A stretch of DNA of 50,496 nt, from assembly GCA_903920435.1 (NCBI GenBank), contig CAIXMB010000140.1:1-50496 (forward strand), written 5' to 3'. Source of the DNA: an uncultured Actinomycetes bacterium. Its GTDB lineage: Bacteria; Actinomycetota; Actinomycetes; Actinomycetales; Microbacteriaceae. The notes under the pieces were generated by a model. It was not told where the DNA came from and ran no database searches. It saw nothing but the letters and a program-made list of their open reading frames with translations. Numbering within the stretch: position 1 is the stretch's first letter; every line of letters starts with the position of its first letter. This document shows, piece after piece, positions 18,492-27,468 of the stretch. The position numbers and the translations under genes were made by a program.

Positions 18492-18505
18492 AATCTAGCT
18501 AGATT
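18492..18505. promoter_or_regulatory. Perfect palindrome forming divergent -10 elements
   Basis: AATCTAGCTAGATT is a perfect 14-base palindrome. Read leftward it supplies TAGATT six bases before the TMEM175 ATG; read rightward it supplies TAGATT seven bases before the P450 GTG. The whole intergenic region is 27 bases, so both genes must use this element or nothing. Confidence 0.6.
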
Positions 18506-18512
18506 GGGCAGC

Positions 18513-19763
18513 GTGCCAGTAGCCGAGGATCTCATCGCCCCCGTGCGCGAGCGCACGCTCAACCCCCTCACCGACGGAATCGGCAGCAGCGCCCGCGCGC
18601 ACGAGCACCGCCTGCTGAGTGCGGCACGCCCCGCCCTGCCGTTCCTCAACTGGGTGGGCATGTTCGCCAAGCCCCTCCTCAAGGTGCCGGGCCTCGGCTG
18701 GATCACCGCCGACCCGCTCACCGCGCGCGCCGTGCTCACCGACCCCGACCACTTCACCCTCCTCAGCGAGGGCGGTGTCGGCCACCTGTGGGCGCAGATC
18801 CTGGGCGACTGGGTCTACGACCTGTTCGACGGCCCGGGCCACCACGACCTGCGCACCCGCAGCCGCGAGCTGTTCACCGAGAAGACCAGCTTCGAGTTCG
18901 TCGAGCGCGCCTGGGGCAGTCGCATCACGGATGCCCGGCGCCAGTTCGACGCCGGCGAGCCCCTCGACCTCGCCGACCTGAGCCGCGTGCTCGTGGGGCA
19001 GATGGTCGTGACCCTGCTCGGCATGCCCGTGGCGGAGACCGACGACCCCGACGACGCCTACCGTGAGATCTTCCGCACTGGCGAGGAGCTGGCGGCGACC
19101 GCCCTCGGCACGACGGCCGACACCGTGCTGCCGCCCGAGAAGATCGCCGCCGCCCGCGTCATCGTCGAGAAGCTCACGGGCCATATCGACAGGGCGTTCG
19201 AGACCGCCTCGGGCGACACCATCATCGGGCGCTGCCGCGACCTGGGCCTGACGCTGCAGGAGACGAAGGGGCTGTCGACGCTGCTCATGGTGGCCGGCAC
19301 CGAGACCGCGGCATCCGCGATGTCGCGGACCGCCGCGCTGCTCTACGACACGGGTCAGCAGCACGCCCTGATCGCCAACCCGAAGCTCACGGAGAACGCG
19401 GTGCGCGAGGCGCTGCGCGTCACGTCGCCCGCGCCCATCATCGGGCGCTCGGTGCTCGCCGACCTGACCATCGGCAAGCACACGCTGCGGGCCGGCGAGC
19501 GCATCGTCGTGCTCACCTGGACCGCGAACAACCTCGCGGGCGACTACCGCGTCGACCGCGACTACATCCCGCAGAACCGCCAGCTCTGGTTCGGCGCGGG
19601 GCGCCACCTGTGCCTCGGCGGGCCGCTCGCGCGCGCCGAGCTCACCAAGATCATCGACATGCTCGTGGGCGATGGGCGCCCGTTCCGGATCGTGTCGCGC
19701 CGGTACGGCAAGCGCGTGCTCATCCCGGCCTATGAGAGCCTCGTGGTACAGAAGGGGGTCTGA
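18513..19763 (+). CDS. Cytochrome P450
   Basis: A 416-residue soluble bacterial P450 that would hydroxylate or otherwise oxidise an organic substrate using electrons from a ferredoxin partner. The I-helix motif is VAGTETAAS near residue 260, the ExxR motif is EALR, and the heme-binding segment FGAGRHLCLGGPLA contains Cys367. The start is a GTG at 18513, chosen from the TAGATT element at seven bases. It resembles the P450 at 24564-25709 in several places (VPGLG near the N-terminus, LWFGAG-H-CLG, and a C-terminal VLIPSY-like segment), so the two are probably related. No ferredoxin or reductase gene is nearby. The next gene begins two bases after its stop. Confidence 0.93.
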   Translation: MPVAEDLIAPVRERTLNPLTDGIGSSARAHEHRLLSAARPALPFLNWVGMFAKPLLKVPGLGWITADPLTARAVLTDPDHFTLLSEGGVGHLWAQILGDWVYDLFDGPGHHDLRTRSRELFTEKTSFEFVERAWGSRITDARRQFDAGEPLDLADLSRVLVGQMVVTLLGMPVAETDDPDDAYREIFRTGEELAATALGTTADTVLPPEKIAAARVIVEKLTGHIDRAFETASGDTIIGRCRDLGLTLQETKGLSTLLMVAGTETAASAMSRTAALLYDTGQQHALIANPKLTENAVREALRVTSPAPIIGRSVLADLTIGKHTLRAGERIVVLTWTANNLAGDYRVDRDYIPQNRQLWFGAGRHLCLGGPLARAELTKIIDMLVGDGRPFRIVSRRYGKRVLIPAYESLVVQKGV

Positions 19764-19765
19764 TC

Positions 19766-21346
19766 ATGAAGCGTCCCGTACTCCTCGCGGCGGTGGCCGT
19801 TCTCGTCGGGGCGCTCGTCGTCGCAGCGCCGCTCTCGGCGTCCGCGGCCGCGCCCGTGATCAGCGTCGTCTCGCCCGTTTCGATCACGGATGACTCCACG
19901 CCGGTATCGCCGTTCAGTGGCGACTCGATCGCCGACGCCGACAACGACACCCTGAGCGTCTCGGTGTCATGGACGAGCGGCGGCACCGTCGCAGGGTCGG
20001 CGAGCCCGGTCTCGACCTCGGGCGCTCCGGCGGCCGTCACGACGTGGCTCCGGGCACTCGTGTACACGCCGGCGGTCGGCGTCACGACCACCGCATCCTT
20101 CACCATCAGCGTCGACGACGGCGGCGGCGCCGTCACCGACAGCTCGGTCTCGGTGCAGGTGACCGCCGTTGCGGTCGACCTGCACATCGGGGCCTCCGGC
20201 ACGGGAACGTACGGCGGTGCGGCAACGGTCAGCCCCGTGTATCCGTCGGGCATGACCGGGGTGGATACCTCGGGCGTCGTGTGCACCTCGACGACGACCG
20301 CGACCGACCCCGCCGGCACCTACGCGACCGCGGGACAGTGCTCCGGTGCCGCGTCGCTCCCCGGTTTCACCTACAACTTCATCTACGACCTCGGCGCGGT
20401 CGTCATCGACAAGGCGCCACTCACGGTGACGGCGTCCACGGTGTCAGGGATGTACGGCTCGCTGCCGACGCCGACGCCGGGCTACTCGGGGCTGGTGAAC
20501 GGCGAGACGTCGGTCGCCGGCATCGCGTGCACGACGGTCGCGCCGGTCGTGCCGTCGGCGCCCACCCGGTGCTCGGGCACCGCCGCCAACTACTCGCTCA
20601 CCTTCGTCGACGGCACCGCGACCGTCACGCAGGCGCCGCTCACCCTCACACCGTCGAACGCTCAGGCCACGTACGGCTCCCTCGCGCCGGTGACCGCGAC
20701 CCCGACGGGGTTCGTGAGCGGAGACACCATGGCGTCGCTCACCACTCAGCCGACCTGCACGACCTCGGCGGGAGCCACCGCCCATGTCGGCGGCTACCCT
20801 GCGACCACCACGTGCGCCGGGGCCGTGGCGACCAACTACGCGATCAGCTATGGCGCTAGCGGCACGACGACGATCACGCCCGCGAGCCTCACGATCACCG
20901 CGCTCGGAAAGTCCCGCCTCGTGGGGCAGGCGAACGGAGACTTCTCCGCGACCACTGTCGGGTTCGTCAACGGCCAGACCATCGCCAACCTCACCGGGAC
21001 CCTGCGGTTCACGACCGCGGCCACTGCCGCGAGCGGACCCGGCAGCTACCCCGTGCAGCCCTCCGGCGTCAGCTCGACCGACTACGCCATCACCTTCGTG
21101 CCGGGCGTCGTCACCGTCACCGCGGTCGCACCCACACCGACCCCCACGCCGACGGCGACGGTCACCCCGTCTCCGTCGCCCAGCCCCACTCCCACGCGCA
21201 CCCCGGCTCCGACCCCGACCCCCACGCCCGACCCGACGCCGACCTCGAACGACCTCGGCTGGGTGCCGTGGGTGATCGTGGTCGCGGGAGTCGTGTTCAT
21301 CGCGGCGATCGTCGCCATCATCCTGTGGCGGCGGCGAGCCGCCTAG
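19766..21346 (+). CDS. Surface protein with MBG-type repeats and C-terminal membrane anchor
   Basis: A 526-residue exported protein. It has a signal peptide (MKRPVLLAAVAVLVGALVV, cleavage probably after ASAAA), then an Ig-like or cadherin-like domain, and about three MBG-type beta repeats at roughly residues 140-450, each beginning with a phrase such as PLTVTAS or PLTLTPS and containing a YGSL segment. A Pro/Thr linker of about 40 residues follows, then one transmembrane helix (WVIVVAGVVFIAAIVAIILW) and a short RRRAA cytoplasmic tail. No sortase motif is seen. It begins two bases after the P450 stop, an unexpected partner for a cytoplasmic oxygenase. The role is probably adhesion or cell-surface structure. 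Confidence 0.8.
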   Translation: MKRPVLLAAVAVLVGALVVAAPLSASAAAPVISVVSPVSITDDSTPVSPFSGDSIADADNDTLSVSVSWTSGGTVAGSASPVSTSGAPAAVTTWLRALVYTPAVGVTTTASFTISVDDGGGAVTDSSVSVQVTAVAVDLHIGASGTGTYGGAATVSPVYPSGMTGVDTSGVVCTSTTTATDPAGTYATAGQCSGAASLPGFTYNFIYDLGAVVIDKAPLTVTASTVSGMYGSLPTPTPGYSGLVNGETSVAGIACTTVAPVVPSAPTRCSGTAANYSLTFVDGTATVTQAPLTLTPSNAQATYGSLAPVTATPTGFVSGDTMASLTTQPTCTTSAGATAHVGGYPATTTCAGAVATNYAISYGASGTTTITPASLTITALGKSRLVGQANGDFSATTVGFVNGQTIANLTGTLRFTTAATAASGPGSYPVQPSGVSSTDYAITFVPGVVTVTAVAPTPTPTPTATVTPSPSPSPTPTRTPAPTPTPTPDPTPTSNDLGWVPWVIVVAGVVFIAAIVAIILWRRRAA

Positions 21347-22265: not shown

Positions 22266-23120
22266 TCACCATTGTTCCGCACCGACCAGCGAAGTGGGCC
22301 CGGGTTCGTACCCGAGCAGCTCTCGCGCCCGGGTGAGGTCGAGGGTGCGCTCGAGTCCGAGCTGCGAGACCGCGTAGCGCGTGAGCCTCGGTCGGCGCTG
22401 CAGCCTCTCGGCGACGGCGGCGGCCGCGAAGGCGGCGCGGTACGGGATCGAGTGCAGCGTGACATCCGGTCGCCCGCGCCGGGCGAGGAACTCGGTGAGC
22501 ACCGCAGACAGCAGCACGTCGGTGTCGTCGCCGACGTTGTAGACGCCCGCGGGGCCGGTGAGTGCGAGGGCGGCCGCGGCGGCGAGGTTTTCCACGTGGG
22601 TGAGCGTGTGCCGCACGCGCGCGCCCTCGGGCAGCACGAGGCGCGAGCCACGGATGCCCGCCAGCACGCGCGGCAGCAGCGTCGTGTCGCCCGGCCCGTA
22701 CACGGCGTGCGGCCGCAGTACCACGGCGTCGGTGGGCAGTTCCCCTTCGGCCGCGGCCTTCGACTCCGAGTAGCTGCTCAGGTATCTGGTCGGCAGCGGA
22801 GTGTCCTCCCGCACCTCGACCGACGGCACGAAGGCGTCGTACACGCTGGAGGTCGATACGTGCACGATGCGCGCGCCCGCCGCGCTCGCAACGACGTTGC
22901 GGGTGCCGATGCGGTTGACGAGCATCGCCTGCCCGAGCGGCGCCGTGTCGTCGGCGAGCGCCGCACAGTGCACCACCGCATCGACGCGGAGGTCGAACGG
23001 CCCCGCCGTGATGTCCCACTCCCGGCGCGTGAGCGGGGTGACGTCGTGGCCGTGCTCCCGCAGGTGGGCGGTGATCGCGCCGCCCACGAAGCCCGCGGCG
23101 CCGGTAACGGCGACCCTCAC
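22266..23120 (-). CDS. oleD: OleD-like NAD(P)-dependent reductase (epimerase-type SDR)
   Basis: A 284-residue extended SDR with TGAAGFVG at residues 6-13, STSSVYD, and the catalytic Tyr117-x-x-x-Lys121 (YSESK). In the olefin and beta-lactone pathways OleD reduces the 2-alkyl-3-keto acid made by OleA to a beta-hydroxy acid. The family alone would also include sugar epimerases, and the OleD assignment rests on its position as last gene after the OleC-like ligase, overlapping it by four bases, and on the OleA homologue upstream. It is shorter than the OleD proteins I recall (over 320 residues). GTG start. Confidence 0.75.
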   Translation of the reverse strand: MRVAVTGAAGFVGGAITAHLREHGHDVTPLTRREWDITAGPFDLRVDAVVHCAALADDTAPLGQAMLVNRIGTRNVVASAAGARIVHVSTSSVYDAFVPSVEVREDTPLPTRYLSSYSESKAAAEGELPTDAVVLRPHAVYGPGDTTLLPRVLAGIRGSRLVLPEGARVRHTLTHVENLAAAAALALTGPAGVYNVGDDTDVLLSAVLTEFLARRGRPDVTLHSIPYRAAFAAAAVAERLQRRPRLTRYAVSQLGLERTLDLTRARELLGYEPGPTSLVGAEQW

Positions 23121-24571
23121 ACGAGACCCCGCAGCGCGGCACGGTCGAGCTTCTGGCTGCGCCCCTTGGTCGGCAGCGCGTCGAGCGTCACGATGCGATC
23201 GGGCATGACTGCGGCGTCGATCAGCCCCGGCAGCGCGGCGGCGACGCGGGACGCATCGCCCACGATCGCCAGCACGAGCTCGTCGTCGCCGATGTCGTTC
23301 GGCACCCCGACGAGCGCCGCCGCTCGTACGCCCGGGATGCCCGCGATCACCGGCTCGTACAGCCCCGGGTACACGTTGGTCGTGCCGCGGATGAACATGT
23401 CCTTGCTGCGTCCGCCCAGGATCACCCGGCCGCCCTCGATGCGCGCGAGGTCGCCGGTGCGCAGCTCGGTGAGCGGAGCCTCGCCGAGGTAGCCGCCGAG
23501 CCCCTCCCCCGCGACGACCAGCTCGCCGTCGTCGATGCGCGCGTCGACGGCCTCCATGAGCTCGCCCACGTAGTCGCCGGCGCCGTCGAACGCGAGCTTC
23601 TCGTCACCGTCCGCGATCGCCACCGGCAGGATCTCCGTCATGCCGTAGATCGCCCGGATGCCCGTGCCCGGAAGTTGCGCGCGCACCCGCTCGAGCAGCG
23701 GCCGCAGCACGGGGGCACCCCCGATGAGCACCAGGCGCAGCTCCGCCCGCACGTCCGAGGTGAGCAGCGCGTCGAGTGCCGCCGGCACGGCGAACAGCAC
23801 GTCGGCACCGGCGAGGAGCGGCAGGTACTTGTCGGGCTTCGCACCGGGGTCGGCGCCCGCGGGAGGCAGCACCCAATGCGCGCCGGCGATGAGCGCGGGG
23901 ATGCCGACCATCAACTGGTCGGTGAGCACGACCTCCCCGGGTACGAAGCCCACGTGGGCGGCGAAGTCGGCGAGCCCCGTACCGAGGGAGGCCCGCGAGT
24001 GCACGACGGCCTTCGGGTGCGCTGTTGTGCCGGAGGTGAAGATGATGAGCGCCTCGACGCCGGGTTTCGATACAGCCGCGGGCGGCCTACTCAACCCGCG
24101 CAACCGGAGCGCGCCGCGCGGCACCCCGGGCAGCCACGGCCCGGAGTAGATGTGGCGGGCATCCGGCACGACGCTGCGGTAGTCGGGCAGGTCGATGCCC
24201 CGTGACCGAGCCAGGCGCCGCAGCGGCCCGCGCGACACCGCGTAGAGCAGCGACTCGGCGGCCACCCACTTCGGCGCCGCGAGCCCTGCCCGCGCGCGGA
24301 ACATCGCCTCGCCCGCCCCCGGGTCGGCGAACACGATGGTGCCGCCGGCCGCGATCGTGCCGAGGGCGAGGCAGATGCCGTCGAGGCCGGGGCGGACCGA
24401 GAACAGCATCCGGTCGCCCGGGAGCATGCCCTGCTCGGTGAGCGCGGCCGCGATGCCGTGGATGCGCGCACTCAGCTGACCGTAGCTGAGGGTGCGACGG
24501 CCGAGGGTCATCGCCGGCGCCCCGGGGGTGCGCTCGCACGCGTCGAGGAGGGCGGCGAGGATGTCAGGCAC
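23117..24571 (-). CDS. oleC: OleC-like AMP-ligase family enzyme (probable beta-lactone synthetase)
   Basis: A 484-residue member of the acyl-CoA synthetase superfamily. The P-loop is FTSGTTAHPKA at residues 178-188, the adenylate motif IYGMTE at 308-313, and TGDL at 372-375. The linker reads RSKDMFIRGTTNVYPGLYEP rather than the usual GFKI or GFNV-S-EVE form, and the C-terminus has GRSQKLDR. OleC enzymes look like ligases but use ATP to close a beta-hydroxy acid into a beta-lactone instead of making a thioester. The ole context supports that reading; a plain acyl-CoA or acyl-AMP ligase is the alternative. GTG start overlapping the P450 stop by eight bases. Confidence 0.75.
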   Translation of the reverse strand: MPDILAALLDACERTPGAPAMTLGRRTLSYGQLSARIHGIAAALTEQGMLPGDRMLFSVRPGLDGICLALGTIAAGGTIVFADPGAGEAMFRARAGLAAPKWVAAESLLYAVSRGPLRRLARSRGIDLPDYRSVVPDARHIYSGPWLPGVPRGALRLRGLSRPPAAVSKPGVEALIIFTSGTTAHPKAVVHSRASLGTGLADFAAHVGFVPGEVVLTDQLMVGIPALIAGAHWVLPPAGADPGAKPDKYLPLLAGADVLFAVPAALDALLTSDVRAELRLVLIGGAPVLRPLLERVRAQLPGTGIRAIYGMTEILPVAIADGDEKLAFDGAGDYVGELMEAVDARIDDGELVVAGEGLGGYLGEAPLTELRTGDLARIEGGRVILGGRSKDMFIRGTTNVYPGLYEPVIAGIPGVRAAALVGVPNDIGDDELVLAIVGDASRVAAALPGLIDAAVMPDRIVTLDALPTKGRSQKLDRAALRGLV

Positions 24572-25709
24572 GCTGCAGCCTCAGAGCCGCGTAGCTCGGG
24601 ATCAGCACGCCGCGCGCCGGCGCGCGGTCGGCGATGCGGAGCTCGCCCGCGTCGAGCAGCGCGTCGAGGGTGAGCCGGATCTGCGCCATCGCGAGCGGCG
24701 CCCCCAGGCAGAAGTGCGTGCCGGCGCCGAACCACAGCTGCTTGAGCTGGGCCGCGACGTTCGTCGCCGGGTCGAACGGGCCGAGCGCGCGGTTCGCGGC
24801 GTAGGTGGCGAGGATGATCCGGTCGCCCGGGCGCACCGCGACGGGCCCGATCGCGCCGCGCGCCACGACGCTGCGCAGCATGACCGGCGAGGGCGTCGTG
24901 ACGCGCAGGCCCTCGGCGATCGCGGGCTCGGCGAGGGAGCGGTCCGCGGCGATGAGCGGCAGCCACCCCGAGTCCACGAGCACGGCGATCAGGCGCGGGA
25001 TGTACGACACGAGTGTCTCGGTGCCGGTGAGCACGAAGGCGCCGACGGCACCCATCGCCTCGTCCTCGGTGAGGCCGAGCGCGCGCATCCGGCCGGGCAC
25101 GGTCTGCTCGTCGCCCGCCCGGTAGGCCTCGCGCGCGTGCGCGGTGAGCTCGTCGAGGATGCCCCGCGCGACGGCGACCTGCGCCGGGGTGAGGCGCGGC
25201 CGGGCGAGCCGCACGAAGCGGGTGATCGACGAGACGCGGTCGAACAGCTCGTCGTCGAGGCTCTCGAGCGGCAGCCCCACGAGCTGGGCGATCATCGCGC
25301 TCGCGTAGCGCTTGACCTCGGCGACGATGTCGACGCTCTCGCCAGCCCGCAGTCGCGCGGTGAGCTGCGCGGTCGGCAGGGATGCCGCGGCGAGCGGCTC
25401 CACGTAGGCGGGGGCGAAGAGCGACCCCAGCTTGCGGCGCAGCGCGAGGTGGTCCGCGCCCTCCATGTTGAGCAGCACCGCCGGCCCGAGCACCGGAGTC
25501 CACAGGTCGCTGGGGCTGCCCGGGCCCGTCTTGGTGAACGTCGCGGTGTCCATCAGGGTCTCGCGCAGCAGGGCGGCGTCACGCACGAGCACGCCCAACC
25601 CCGGCACGCGCAGCACCGGACGGCGGGCGGTCTGCAGCAGCGGGTACACCACCGGGTGGGCGGCGCGCATCACGCGCTCCTCCCACCTCCTCGCGAGGGC
25701 GATGCTCAC
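24564..25709 (-). CDS. Cytochrome P450 within the ole-like operon
   Basis: A 381-residue soluble P450. Its I-helix motif is LTGTETLVS, the ExxR motif is EGLR, and the heme loop FGAGTHFCLGAPLA contains Cys334. Set between the glycosyltransferase and oleC genes with overlaps at both ends, it is likely to oxidise an intermediate or product of the pathway. The GTG at 25709 gives a four-base overlap with the glycosyltransferase stop; an ATG at 25670 with a strong GGAGGAG sequence six bases before it is a credible alternative that would give 368 residues. It shares local sequence with the P450 at 18513-19763. No redox partner gene is next to it. Confidence 0.9.
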   Translation of the reverse strand: MSIALARRWEERVMRAAHPVVYPLLQTARRPVLRVPGLGVLVRDAALLRETLMDTATFTKTGPGSPSDLWTPVLGPAVLLNMEGADHLALRRKLGSLFAPAYVEPLAAASLPTAQLTARLRAGESVDIVAEVKRYASAMIAQLVGLPLESLDDELFDRVSSITRFVRLARPRLTPAQVAVARGILDELTAHAREAYRAGDEQTVPGRMRALGLTEDEAMGAVGAFVLTGTETLVSYIPRLIAVLVDSGWLPLIAADRSLAEPAIAEGLRVTTPSPVMLRSVVARGAIGPVAVRPGDRIILATYAANRALGPFDPATNVAAQLKQLWFGAGTHFCLGAPLAMAQIRLTLDALLDAGELRIADRAPARGVLIPSYAALRLQRA

Positions 25710-26443
25710 CGGATGTCCACGTGCTCGGGCCGGTACTGGTGGTCCTTGTACCAGAGCAGGGTGTTCTTGAGCCCCCACGCGGTGACCCGGCGCGAGCTGC
25801 CGTAGACGACGACATCACGGCGGCGCGCATAGTTGCCCGTGAGCCGTCGCACGGCGTTGACGAGCGCGCGATCCTCGTGCAGGTCTTCGATGGCGGTGCG
25901 CGGGAAGCCGCCGGCCTCGACGTACAGGTCGGCACGGATGCCCACATTGCAGCCCGCGGCCATCATGTACGGCCCGCGGTACTCCGGCGAGCGATTGCCG
26001 GGCCGGATGCGCCCGAAGGCCTCGGCGAGCTCGACCGCGGCGCGCAGCAGTACGCGCTTGCCGAGCGAGAGGCCCTCGTCGTGGCGGGGCACGAGCTCGC
26101 CGCCCACGAGCCCCAGGCCGTCGTCGCCGAGGGAGCGGCGGATCGACGCCGTCCAGTCCGCTCGCGGGAGGCAGTCCGCGTCGGTGCGCGCGAGCAGGGT
26201 CGCGCCCGCGGCGATCGCGGCGCGCATGCCCGTGTCGGCGGCGGCCCCCGTGCCCTTGAGGGATTCACGGATGATGTGCCAGCGCGGGTTGTTCCGTGCG
26301 GAGATGATCGCCACCGAGGCATCCGTGCTGTTGTTGTCGACGAAGTACACGTCGAAGTCGGCGTCGGTCTGGGCCTCAAGGGCGTCGAGGGTGGGCCCGA
26401 TCCCGGCTGCCTCGTTGTACACGGGCACGATGACGGCGAGCAC
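25706..26443 (-). CDS. Family 2 glycosyltransferase
   Basis: A 245-residue GT-A fold enzyme with no membrane helix. It begins MLAVIVPVYNEAAGIG, has the nucleotide-sugar Asp-x-Asp at 88-90 (RTDADC), a GGEL segment near 115, and the acidic acceptor motif IEDLHEDRAL at 185-194. It would transfer a sugar from a nucleotide sugar or polyprenyl-phosphate sugar. The GTG start shares one base with the oleA TAG stop, so translation is coupled. Its place in the operon suggests it glycosylates the lipid product, for example at a hydroxyl introduced by the P450; this is inference. Confidence 0.88.
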   Translation of the reverse strand: MLAVIVPVYNEAAGIGPTLDALEAQTDADFDVYFVDNNSTDASVAIISARNNPRWHIIRESLKGTGAAADTGMRAAIAAGATLLARTDADCLPRADWTASIRRSLGDDGLGLVGGELVPRHDEGLSLGKRVLLRAAVELAEAFGRIRPGNRSPEYRGPYMMAAGCNVGIRADLYVEAGGFPRTAIEDLHEDRALVNAVRRLTGNYARRRDVVVYGSSRRVTAWGLKNTLLWYKDHQYRPEHVDIR

Positions 26444-27468
26444 TAGAGCCGCACCACCATCAGGCCGAGGCTGATGCCGCCCGCGAGCCCGATGAGCAGC
26501 ACGAGGCTGCCGGGGCCCACGATGCCCTGCTCGCGCGCGAGCTCCAGCTGCAGCGGCAGCGTCACCGACGCGAGGTTGCCGTGGTCGGCGATCGTGATCA
26601 CCGACTTGTCGGCGGCGACCCCCAGCCGCTCGAAGATGGGCGGCAGGTACGGCAGCGCGACCTGGTGGATGGCGACGAGGTCGAAGTCGGCCCAGGTGAG
26701 GCCGTTCTTCTCGAGCAGGTCGAGCACGGGCTGCGGACCGAGCTCGAGGAACGCCTGCTGCAGGCCCGAGCCGTCCATGTCGAAGTAGGCGTGGTCCATG
26801 CTGCGGGGGTTCATCGAGCCGCCCGTGGGCAGCGTGCCGATGCCCCAGTGCCTGCTGACCGCGACGAAGCTCGAATCGAGGATGCCCGTGCTCGGGTCGT
26901 CGGTCGCCTCCAGGATGACCGCAGCGCCACCGTCGCTCATCGTGTAGCCCGGGAACGACCTGATGAACTGGTCGTGGTCGCGCAGGTTCCAGCGCACGCC
27001 GTGGCTCGGCTGCTCGCCGCTCGCGACGAGGACGCGGCGGTACTGCCCCGCCGCGATGAGCGCCTCGGCCACCTGCATCGCGTTGATGACGCTGTTGCAG
27101 GCGTTCTTGATGTCCATGACCGGGCACTCGAAGCCGAGCTTCGCGGCGACGATGTGGCTCGTCGCGGGCTCGATGAGGTCTTGGCTGGCGCTCGCGAAGA
27201 TCACCAGGTCGATCTCGCCCGGGCTCTCGGCGAGCGCCTTCTCCGCCGCCGCGACCGCGAGGTCAGACGTCTGCCAGCCCTCGGGCCGCAGGTGCACGGT
27301 CTCCACGCCGGTGAGCCTGCCGATGAGGCCCGTCGCCAGACGCAGCCCGGGGTTGGCGTCGCGCAGGTCGCGCTCGGTCTGCTTCGTCGTGCGCGTGCGC
27401 TCCGGGAGGAAGATGCCGATTCCTGCGATGCGGGCTGAGGCACTGCGGTTTTCGAGAAGCACGGGCAC
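26443..27468 (-). CDS. oleA: OleA-like thiolase-fold condensing enzyme
   Basis: A 341-residue protein of the 3-oxoacyl-ACP synthase III fold. The catalytic triad is Cys124 (DIKNACNSV), His268 (AIHQVALPY) and Asn298 (DHGNLASV). Glu100 in LIEPATS sits where OleA has the glutamate that acts as base in joining two acyl-CoA molecules, a residue FabH lacks. OleA condenses two fatty acyl-CoAs to a 2-alkyl-3-keto acid. I chose the GTG at 27468 because TAGGCT lies seven bases upstream; the longer ATG at 27501 would overlap the start of the divergent zinc-finger gene. It is the first gene of a five-gene coupled operon. Classical FabH or an alkylresorcinol-type role are less likely alternatives. Confidence 0.8.
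   Translation of the reverse strand: MPVLLENRSASARIAGIGIFLPERTRTTKQTERDLRDANPGLRLATGLIGRLTGVETVHLRPEGWQTSDLAVAAAEKALAESPGEIDLVIFASASQDLIEPATSHIVAAKLGFECPVMDIKNACNSVINAMQVAEALIAAGQYRRVLVASGEQPSHGVRWNLRDHDQFIRSFPGYTMSDGGAAVILEATDDPSTGILDSSFVAVSRHWGIGTLPTGGSMNPRSMDHAYFDMDGSGLQQAFLELGPQPVLDLLEKNGLTWADFDLVAIHQVALPYLPPIFERLGVAADKSVITIADHGNLASVTLPLQLELAREQGIVGPGSLVLLIGLAGGISLGLMVVRL

Follow-up and report, generated by a model that had tools for sequence, protein, structure and literature searches.

We analysed a 50,496-nucleotide stretch of DNA (hereafter, the window) from an uncultured Actinomycetes bacterium of the family Microbacteriaceae (GCA_903920435.1, contig CAIXMB010000140.1, positions 1-50,496, forward strand). 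It carries an operon in which OleA-, OleC- and OleD-type genes are joined by a family 2 glycosyltransferase (GT2) and a cytochrome P450 (P450a), with a second cytochrome P450 (P450b) beyond its end. Judged from the genes, the six together would form a pathway to a lipid of two fatty acids joined head to head, oxidised and glycosylated, either a beta-lactone or a beta-hydroxy acid, a reading to which we assign a probability of roughly 0.55. The cluster type is already known; new here are P450b, a spread over at least seven families, fusions of GT2 with P450a, and a sister layout with an F390-type ligase. We regard the finding as sound and the chemistry as plausible, with the novelty largely pre-empted.

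The operon runs on the minus strand from an OleA-type ketosynthase of the thiolase superfamily (26443..27468), the predicted condensing enzyme, through GT2 (25706..26443; 245 amino acids, GTG start), P450a (24564..25709; GTG start) and an OleC-type adenylate-forming enzyme, a predicted beta-lactone synthetase (23117..24571), to an OleD-type NAD(P)-dependent reductase, an extended short-chain dehydrogenase/reductase (SDR; 22266..23120). The OleA stop codon and the GTG start of GT2 have one base in common (26443), and the following gene pairs overlap by 4 (25706-25709), 8 (24564-24571) and 4 bases (23117-23120). The five genes lie where the first-pass annotation had placed them (22266-27468), and it too had described overlaps of 1 to 8 bases. 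The families agree with the Pfam matches (ACP_syn_III and its C-terminal domain, Glycos_transf_2, p450, AMP-binding and Epimerase) and with those of NCBIfam, in which all matches listed for the five proteins lay below the cut-off (for the ligase, the best 25 of 75). The catalytic motifs of the window's proteins were checked and found intact: Glu100, Cys124, His268 and Asn298 in OleA; RTDADC (DxD) and EDLHEDRAL in GT2, which has a GT-A-like fold; the heme motif FGAGTHFCLG in P450a; TSGTT, YGMTE, TGD, GGRSKD and SQKLDR in OleC; and TGxxGxxG and YxxSK in OleD. The earlier inventory of these five genes stood, but it had overlooked P450b on the plus strand (18495..19763; heme motif FGAGRHLCLG; start uncertain, with a later start at 18543 possible), and the system is larger than first described.

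To describe the conservation of the cassette, neighbourhoods of up to 17 and 19 kilobases (kb) were collected and their genes labelled with a home-made gene caller. From 99 loci, 11 without a called OleA (though with a tblastn match) and five second copies of contigs were removed, leaving 83; one locus set comprised the best 80 of 418 confirmed and is not an unbiased sample. GT2 was present in 70 loci and an F390-type ligase in 8, and 5 had neither. The five-gene set recurred beyond the window: the complete set was called in 54 of the 83 OleA loci, which is more than chance, and P450b as well in 38, counts of complete sets that are lower bounds because some genes were split. The order OleA-GT2-P450a-OleC-OleD was kept in 54 loci; on the Streptomyces viridifaciens plasmid pKVP2 the ligase precedes the P450. 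Carriers in the OleA tree belonged to at least seven families (Microbacteriaceae, Micrococcaceae, Promicromonosporaceae, Pseudonocardiaceae, Streptomycetaceae, Thermomonosporaceae and Micromonosporaceae), a Sphaerisporangium record grouping with Promicromonosporaceae being left out of the list. Cultivable carriers include Salinibacterium sp. G-O1 (L040), Promicromonospora citrea (L065) and Streptomyces noursei (L095), the first and last of them with P450b. Within the window's own family, an OleA homologue (E<=1e-30) was present in 16 of 199 genomes, counting the source genome, and in 11 of 85 genera, and in none of the three other genomes of the genus. Viral contigs yielded two pattern matches and no relative.

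The heme cysteine motif was complete in every copy of P450a (79/79) and P450b (46/46), so that neither looks like a dead P450 merely assisting the glycosyltransferase. Other patterns were short in places: ExxR in P450a (64/79) and the I-helix in P450b (40/46); A3 (64), A5 (49), A7 (70), A8 (69) and the C-terminal Lys (10) among 71 OleC proteins; the Rossmann motif (48) and YxxxK (55) among 62 OleD proteins; and DxD (69) and ED (76) among 78 GT2 proteins. These shortfalls may reflect strict patterns, cut genes or real losses.

P450b lies on the opposite strand, 2.5 kb past the end of the operon. A close homologue was found within the fetched flanks of 43 of the 70 GT2-type loci and of none of the 8 F390-type loci; a tie to the GT2-type layout is suggestive only, the sample being small and six of the eight F390-type loci coming from two groups of close relatives. 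Where P450b and OleA were both present (44 loci), P450b lay on the same strand upstream of oleA, 14-47 bases off, in 6 (all Streptomyces), upstream and divergent in 22, and on the other strand downstream in 16 (window included). Within the family, close homologues occurred in 7 of 199 genomes: the source genome and, at 71-80% identity, six more. These seven are all among the 16 genomes with OleA, compared to none of the 183 without it (Fisher p 5e-9, not corrected for relatedness); an eighth match (G111, 36%) overlaps P450a of that genome and was excluded from the count. The Pfam P450 model gave two matches in the source genome, both at the locus and both weak (23 and 22.5 bits), so further divergent P450s may have escaped it. 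By its conserved neighbourhood and co-occurrence, P450b is counted in as a predicted part of the system. An MBG-domain protein (19766-21346, plus strand) begins two bases past the P450b stop codon.

The eight F390-type loci (L030:4378-8787, L033, L034, L053, L055, L059, L060 and L063; Herbiconiux, Agromyces and other genomes of the family) represent a sister layout, in which an F390-synthetase-related ligase stands with an OleD-type reductase, OleA and P450a. TIGR02304 matched above its cut-off in all five of the ligases scanned. P450a was present in 8/8 and GT2 in 0/8. As P450a occurs in both layouts, it would act on the condensed chain whether or not a sugar is added. GT2 and P450a are fused into one 661-amino-acid protein in Galactobacter valiniphilus (L051:10011-11996) and in an Arthrobacter metagenome-assembled genome (L052:2159-4144). 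These fusions tie oxidation to glycosylation; where the product is glycosylated, the P450a and GT2 steps may follow one another closely. The structure model of GT2 (mean predicted local distance difference test score 90.6) matched only diverse GT2 enzymes in the PDB, at a template modelling score of about 0.6 to the query; with matches so diverse, no sugar is predicted.

In the known Ole pathway, as set out in the excerpts of two published accounts, OleA condenses two activated fatty acids to a keto acid, which OleD reduces; OleC then forms the beta-lactone and OleB decarboxylates it (PMC7158056, PMC7064751). The reactions of the window's pathway, their order and the closed ring are inferred from what the sequences show: which genes are present and conserved, which catalytic residues they keep, how OleA and OleC group, and that the OleB searches found none. 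OleA would join two acyl-CoAs into a 2-alkyl-3-keto acid, OleD would reduce this to the 2-alkyl-3-hydroxy acid, and OleC would adenylate the carboxylate and close the beta-lactone, which should persist because there is no OleB. P450a would hydroxylate an acyl chain, P450b, where present, would carry out a further oxidation, and GT2 would place a sugar onto a hydroxyl.

Several results weigh against this pathway. Phmmer scored FabH chains (126.7 bits) over the OleA of Xanthomonas campestris (88.6 bits), and a profile search ranked them in the same way. The cassette OleC obtained 108.8 bits with a generic long-chain acyl-CoA ligase model and 70.3 bits with the NCBIfam olefin beta-lactone synthetase model, whose cut-off of 900 it did not reach. 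The sister layout has a different ligase family in place of OleC, GT2 has no close solved relative, and 27 of the 70 GT2-type loci have no P450b in their flanks. In addition, the OleA of a published cluster with the same five functions, from Actinoplanes atraurantiacus, no other enzyme of such a cluster being known to have been assayed, did not condense C8-C16 acyl-CoAs when purified, with little protein, according to the excerpts of that report, in which it is also among the proteins active in an ester screen (PMC7064751).

The FabH scores would suit an FabH-like initiation synthase, the remaining genes being a chance cluster. The phylogeny, set beforehand as the refutation test of the OleA assignment, gave a different result: the four FabH-type rows of a 40-row tree split off at 100/99, with flags on several long branches, the source genome's FabH among them. 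The Glu that marks the OleA of X. campestris was present in 36/36 non-FabH rows, X. campestris OleA included, and in 0/4 FabH-type rows. Glu100, Cys124, His268 and Asn298, the residues named in the first-pass annotation, were unchanged in all 16 aligned OleA rows, the window among them. The tree and the Glu place the condensing enzyme with OleA and apart from FabH, so pairwise scores alone would have misled, and on these two grounds the FabH reading of the enzyme was ruled out, despite PDB scores favouring FabH. The source genome also contains just two synthase III matches, the cassette OleA and one that reads as FabH within a fatty acid synthesis gene row, and the cluster is conserved; an initiation synthase in a chance cluster is therefore very improbable. 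Within the tree, cassette OleA formed its own clade, save for one long-branched member from an A-B-C-D operon of Streptomyces (L036), and the canonical OleAs of seven OleBC loci (L131-L137) formed two clades outside it.

Ketosynthases other than OleA are known that contain this Glu and make pyrones. The product could thus be another OleA-like one, such as a pyrone (PpyS-like) or the outcome of a mixed condensation, decorated by the P450s and GT2. The OleC- and OleD-type partners suit instead a keto acid undergoing reduction and activation, and we consider such a product improbable.

The ligase was placed with a repeated tree, an earlier one having had few outgroups. A total of 18 cassette and 8 canonical OleC rows lay on one side of a branch (Shimodaira-Hasegawa-like approximate likelihood ratio test, SH-aLRT, 99), with 32 other adenylate-forming enzymes (31 fetched ligases and A domains and the window's FadD) on the other; this was a quick tree, with no bootstrap, and two short cassette rows (L069, L100) were left out. 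Within it, cassette rows formed one group and canonical rows another. The ligase had been proposed to be OleC-type, and in this tree it indeed stands apart from ordinary acyl-CoA ligases; the reading as one of these was rejected. The OleCs of an A-B-C-D and an OleBC locus also remained under the cut-off of 900, at 403 and 257.7 bits, which indicates that this cut-off is strict. For the reductase, cassette, variant and canonical OleD proteins grouped against 19 other SDRs of the genome with a support of 91, not starred, and its best NCBIfam match was OleD (101.5 bits, under the cut-off of 580).

A different end product would follow if the OleC-type enzyme were only an activating ligase that passes the acid on. 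The lipid would then be an open 2-alkyl-3-hydroxy acid, resembling a small mycolate, which GT2 would convert to a glycoside or sugar ester. The better scores of the cassette OleC with acyl-CoA ligase models favour this, as does the F390-synthetase-type ligase that replaces OleC beside OleA, the OleD-type reductase and P450a in eight loci, indicating that a generic activating step could suffice; an MMPL-family gene upstream of the cassette in Agrococcus loci points the same way. The tree, however, groups the ligase with OleC, and 0 of the 14 commonest recurrent neighbour families reads as an acyltransferase. We consider the open acid possible but rather unlikely.

OleB was absent from the locus, as first noted, and none was found in the source genome, which is an estimated 96.4% complete. 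With the OleB of L036 as query, the genome gave five weak alpha/beta hydrolase matches (best 27.1 bits), and with the N-terminus of an OleBC protein it gave no match at E<=1e-8; the latter query reached 1e-77 and 4e-91 in two independent OleBC genomes (a third, at 2e-209, was its own source). Given this completeness, the absence of OleB from the genome is likely, not proven. Across the order, the L036 OleB matched 7 of 198 genomes at E<=1e-30, and all seven frames also carry an OleC domain. In two of the 16 cassette genomes, both of one genus, an OleBC-length frame lies elsewhere (G049, 1e-83, and G119, 3e-85), showing that the cassette can coexist with an olefin pathway as a separate system, and a third (G093) has a weaker hydrolase match (84 bits).

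These data bear on the view that the genes serve an ordinary olefin pathway, with OleB encoded elsewhere and P450 and GT2 unrelated to it. The two genomes with an OleBC fusion would fit, OleB could sit in the missing part of the source genome, and a Streptomyces replicon has a cassette-clade OleA in an A-B-C-D operon. Against this stand the lack of an OleB match at the above threshold in the source genome and the company of GT2 or P450a that OleA keeps across families, and we give the olefin pathway hardly any weight. The Streptomyces replicon (L036:9070-13593, NZ_CP081497.1) encodes OleA-OleB-OleC-OleD; its OleA lies within the cassette clade at 46% identity to that of the window and its OleC groups with canonical OleC, so that it reads as a mosaic locus, with long branches. 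The cassettes of G119 (L032) and G049 (L035) were without an adjacent OleD, both genomes having the OleBC-length frame elsewhere, and G174, with the same genus code, had OleD in its cassette and no OleB match. On a comparison of these three genomes, OleD may be borrowed in trans in the first two.

Besides the labelled families, no gene family occurred in more than 17 of the 83 loci. An ilvD-type dehydratase family (17 loci) and an ilvB-like thiamine pyrophosphate (TPP) enzyme family (16 loci) lie near the cassette in Promicromonosporaceae and Agrococcus (L065, L067, L068, L070 and others), and may point to an old chromosomal site that these loci share. The MMPL family is known for moving envelope lipids. 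By Pfam, the cassette is preceded upstream by an MMPL-family gene in two Agrococcus loci (L031:2174-5098 and L032:1179-4106), and L035 looks alike; in L031 the gene is followed by a 729-amino-acid protein with an ABC-2 membrane match. It is possible that these MMPL-family and ABC-2 genes are lipid exporters. ABC-2 and ABC-transporter genes recur in 8-9 loci of the Promicromonosporaceae group, and ABC-F was matched at >900 bits in 12 of the 83 loci. A role of ABC-F in self-resistance was not adopted; in L023 it lies directly behind genes reading as ksgA and ispE. No exporter or resistance gene common to the loci was found among the 83 neighbourhoods, and an envelope lipid would therefore fit better than a secreted antibiotic.

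The first-pass annotation had considered the combination of Ole genes with a P450 and a glycosyltransferase, but no OleB, to be possibly new. This did not hold: the excerpts of Smith et al. (2020, PMC7064751) describe an A. atraurantiacus cluster with OleA, a glycosyltransferase, OleC, a P450 and OleD in a genome without oleB, and predict a hydroxylated, glycosylated beta-lactone as its product. The oxidised, glycosylated beta-lactone or beta-hydroxy acid lipid first predicted for the window thus stays the best reading, as a deduction from the genes, but not a new one. The A. atraurantiacus cluster, likened to the window's by its published description and not by sequence, shares the five functions, the lack of oleB and the predicted product type. 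It differs in its order, OleA, glycosyltransferase, OleC, P450, OleD, which is like that of S. viridifaciens pKVP2, whereas in the window the P450 precedes OleC; moreover, the excerpts of its description name no second P450 (PMC7064751), whereas P450b is associated with the window's operon.

The canonical oleABCD and oleA-oleBC-oleD operons (excerpts of PMC7158056; loci L131-L137) have homologues of OleA, OleC and OleD in common with the window, as well as the Glu, Cys, His and Asn of OleA. Compared to them, the window is without OleB and with GT2 and P450, and its OleC belongs to the separate cassette clade. The lipstatin (lst) and nocardiolactone clusters, in the excerpts of PMC7064751 and PMC7413640, likewise have OleA, OleC and OleD homologues without OleB, and GT2 and the P450s are additional in the window. 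In those accounts, lipstatin formation uses a heterodimer of two OleA homologues, LstA and LstB, whereas the window has one OleA, the other synthase III of the genome reading as FabH. Among the matches listed from the open-licence PMC literature, there was no isolated product of such a cluster and no publication on the F390-type layout.

Tentatively, and with less confidence than we place in the pathway itself, the two layouts could belong to one widespread actinobacterial lipid class with a fixed core of OleA, P450a, an OleD-type reductase and a ligase. When glycosylated, the lipid would be built with GT2, OleC and often P450b, and when unglycosylated with the F390-synthetase-type ligase; it would amount to a new kind of bacterial glycolipid whose head group is a beta-lactone or resembles a mycolate. 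Beta-lactones are described, in published abstracts and excerpts, as potent inhibitors of hydrolytic enzymes, and a glycosylated lipid form of one, if true, would be of interest to lipid biology and natural product chemistry. A little-followed published cluster type now has a defined core across at least seven actinobacterial families, and its product is testable in named carrier strains, because these carry the cassette as one operon whose removal lets a lipid difference be measured.

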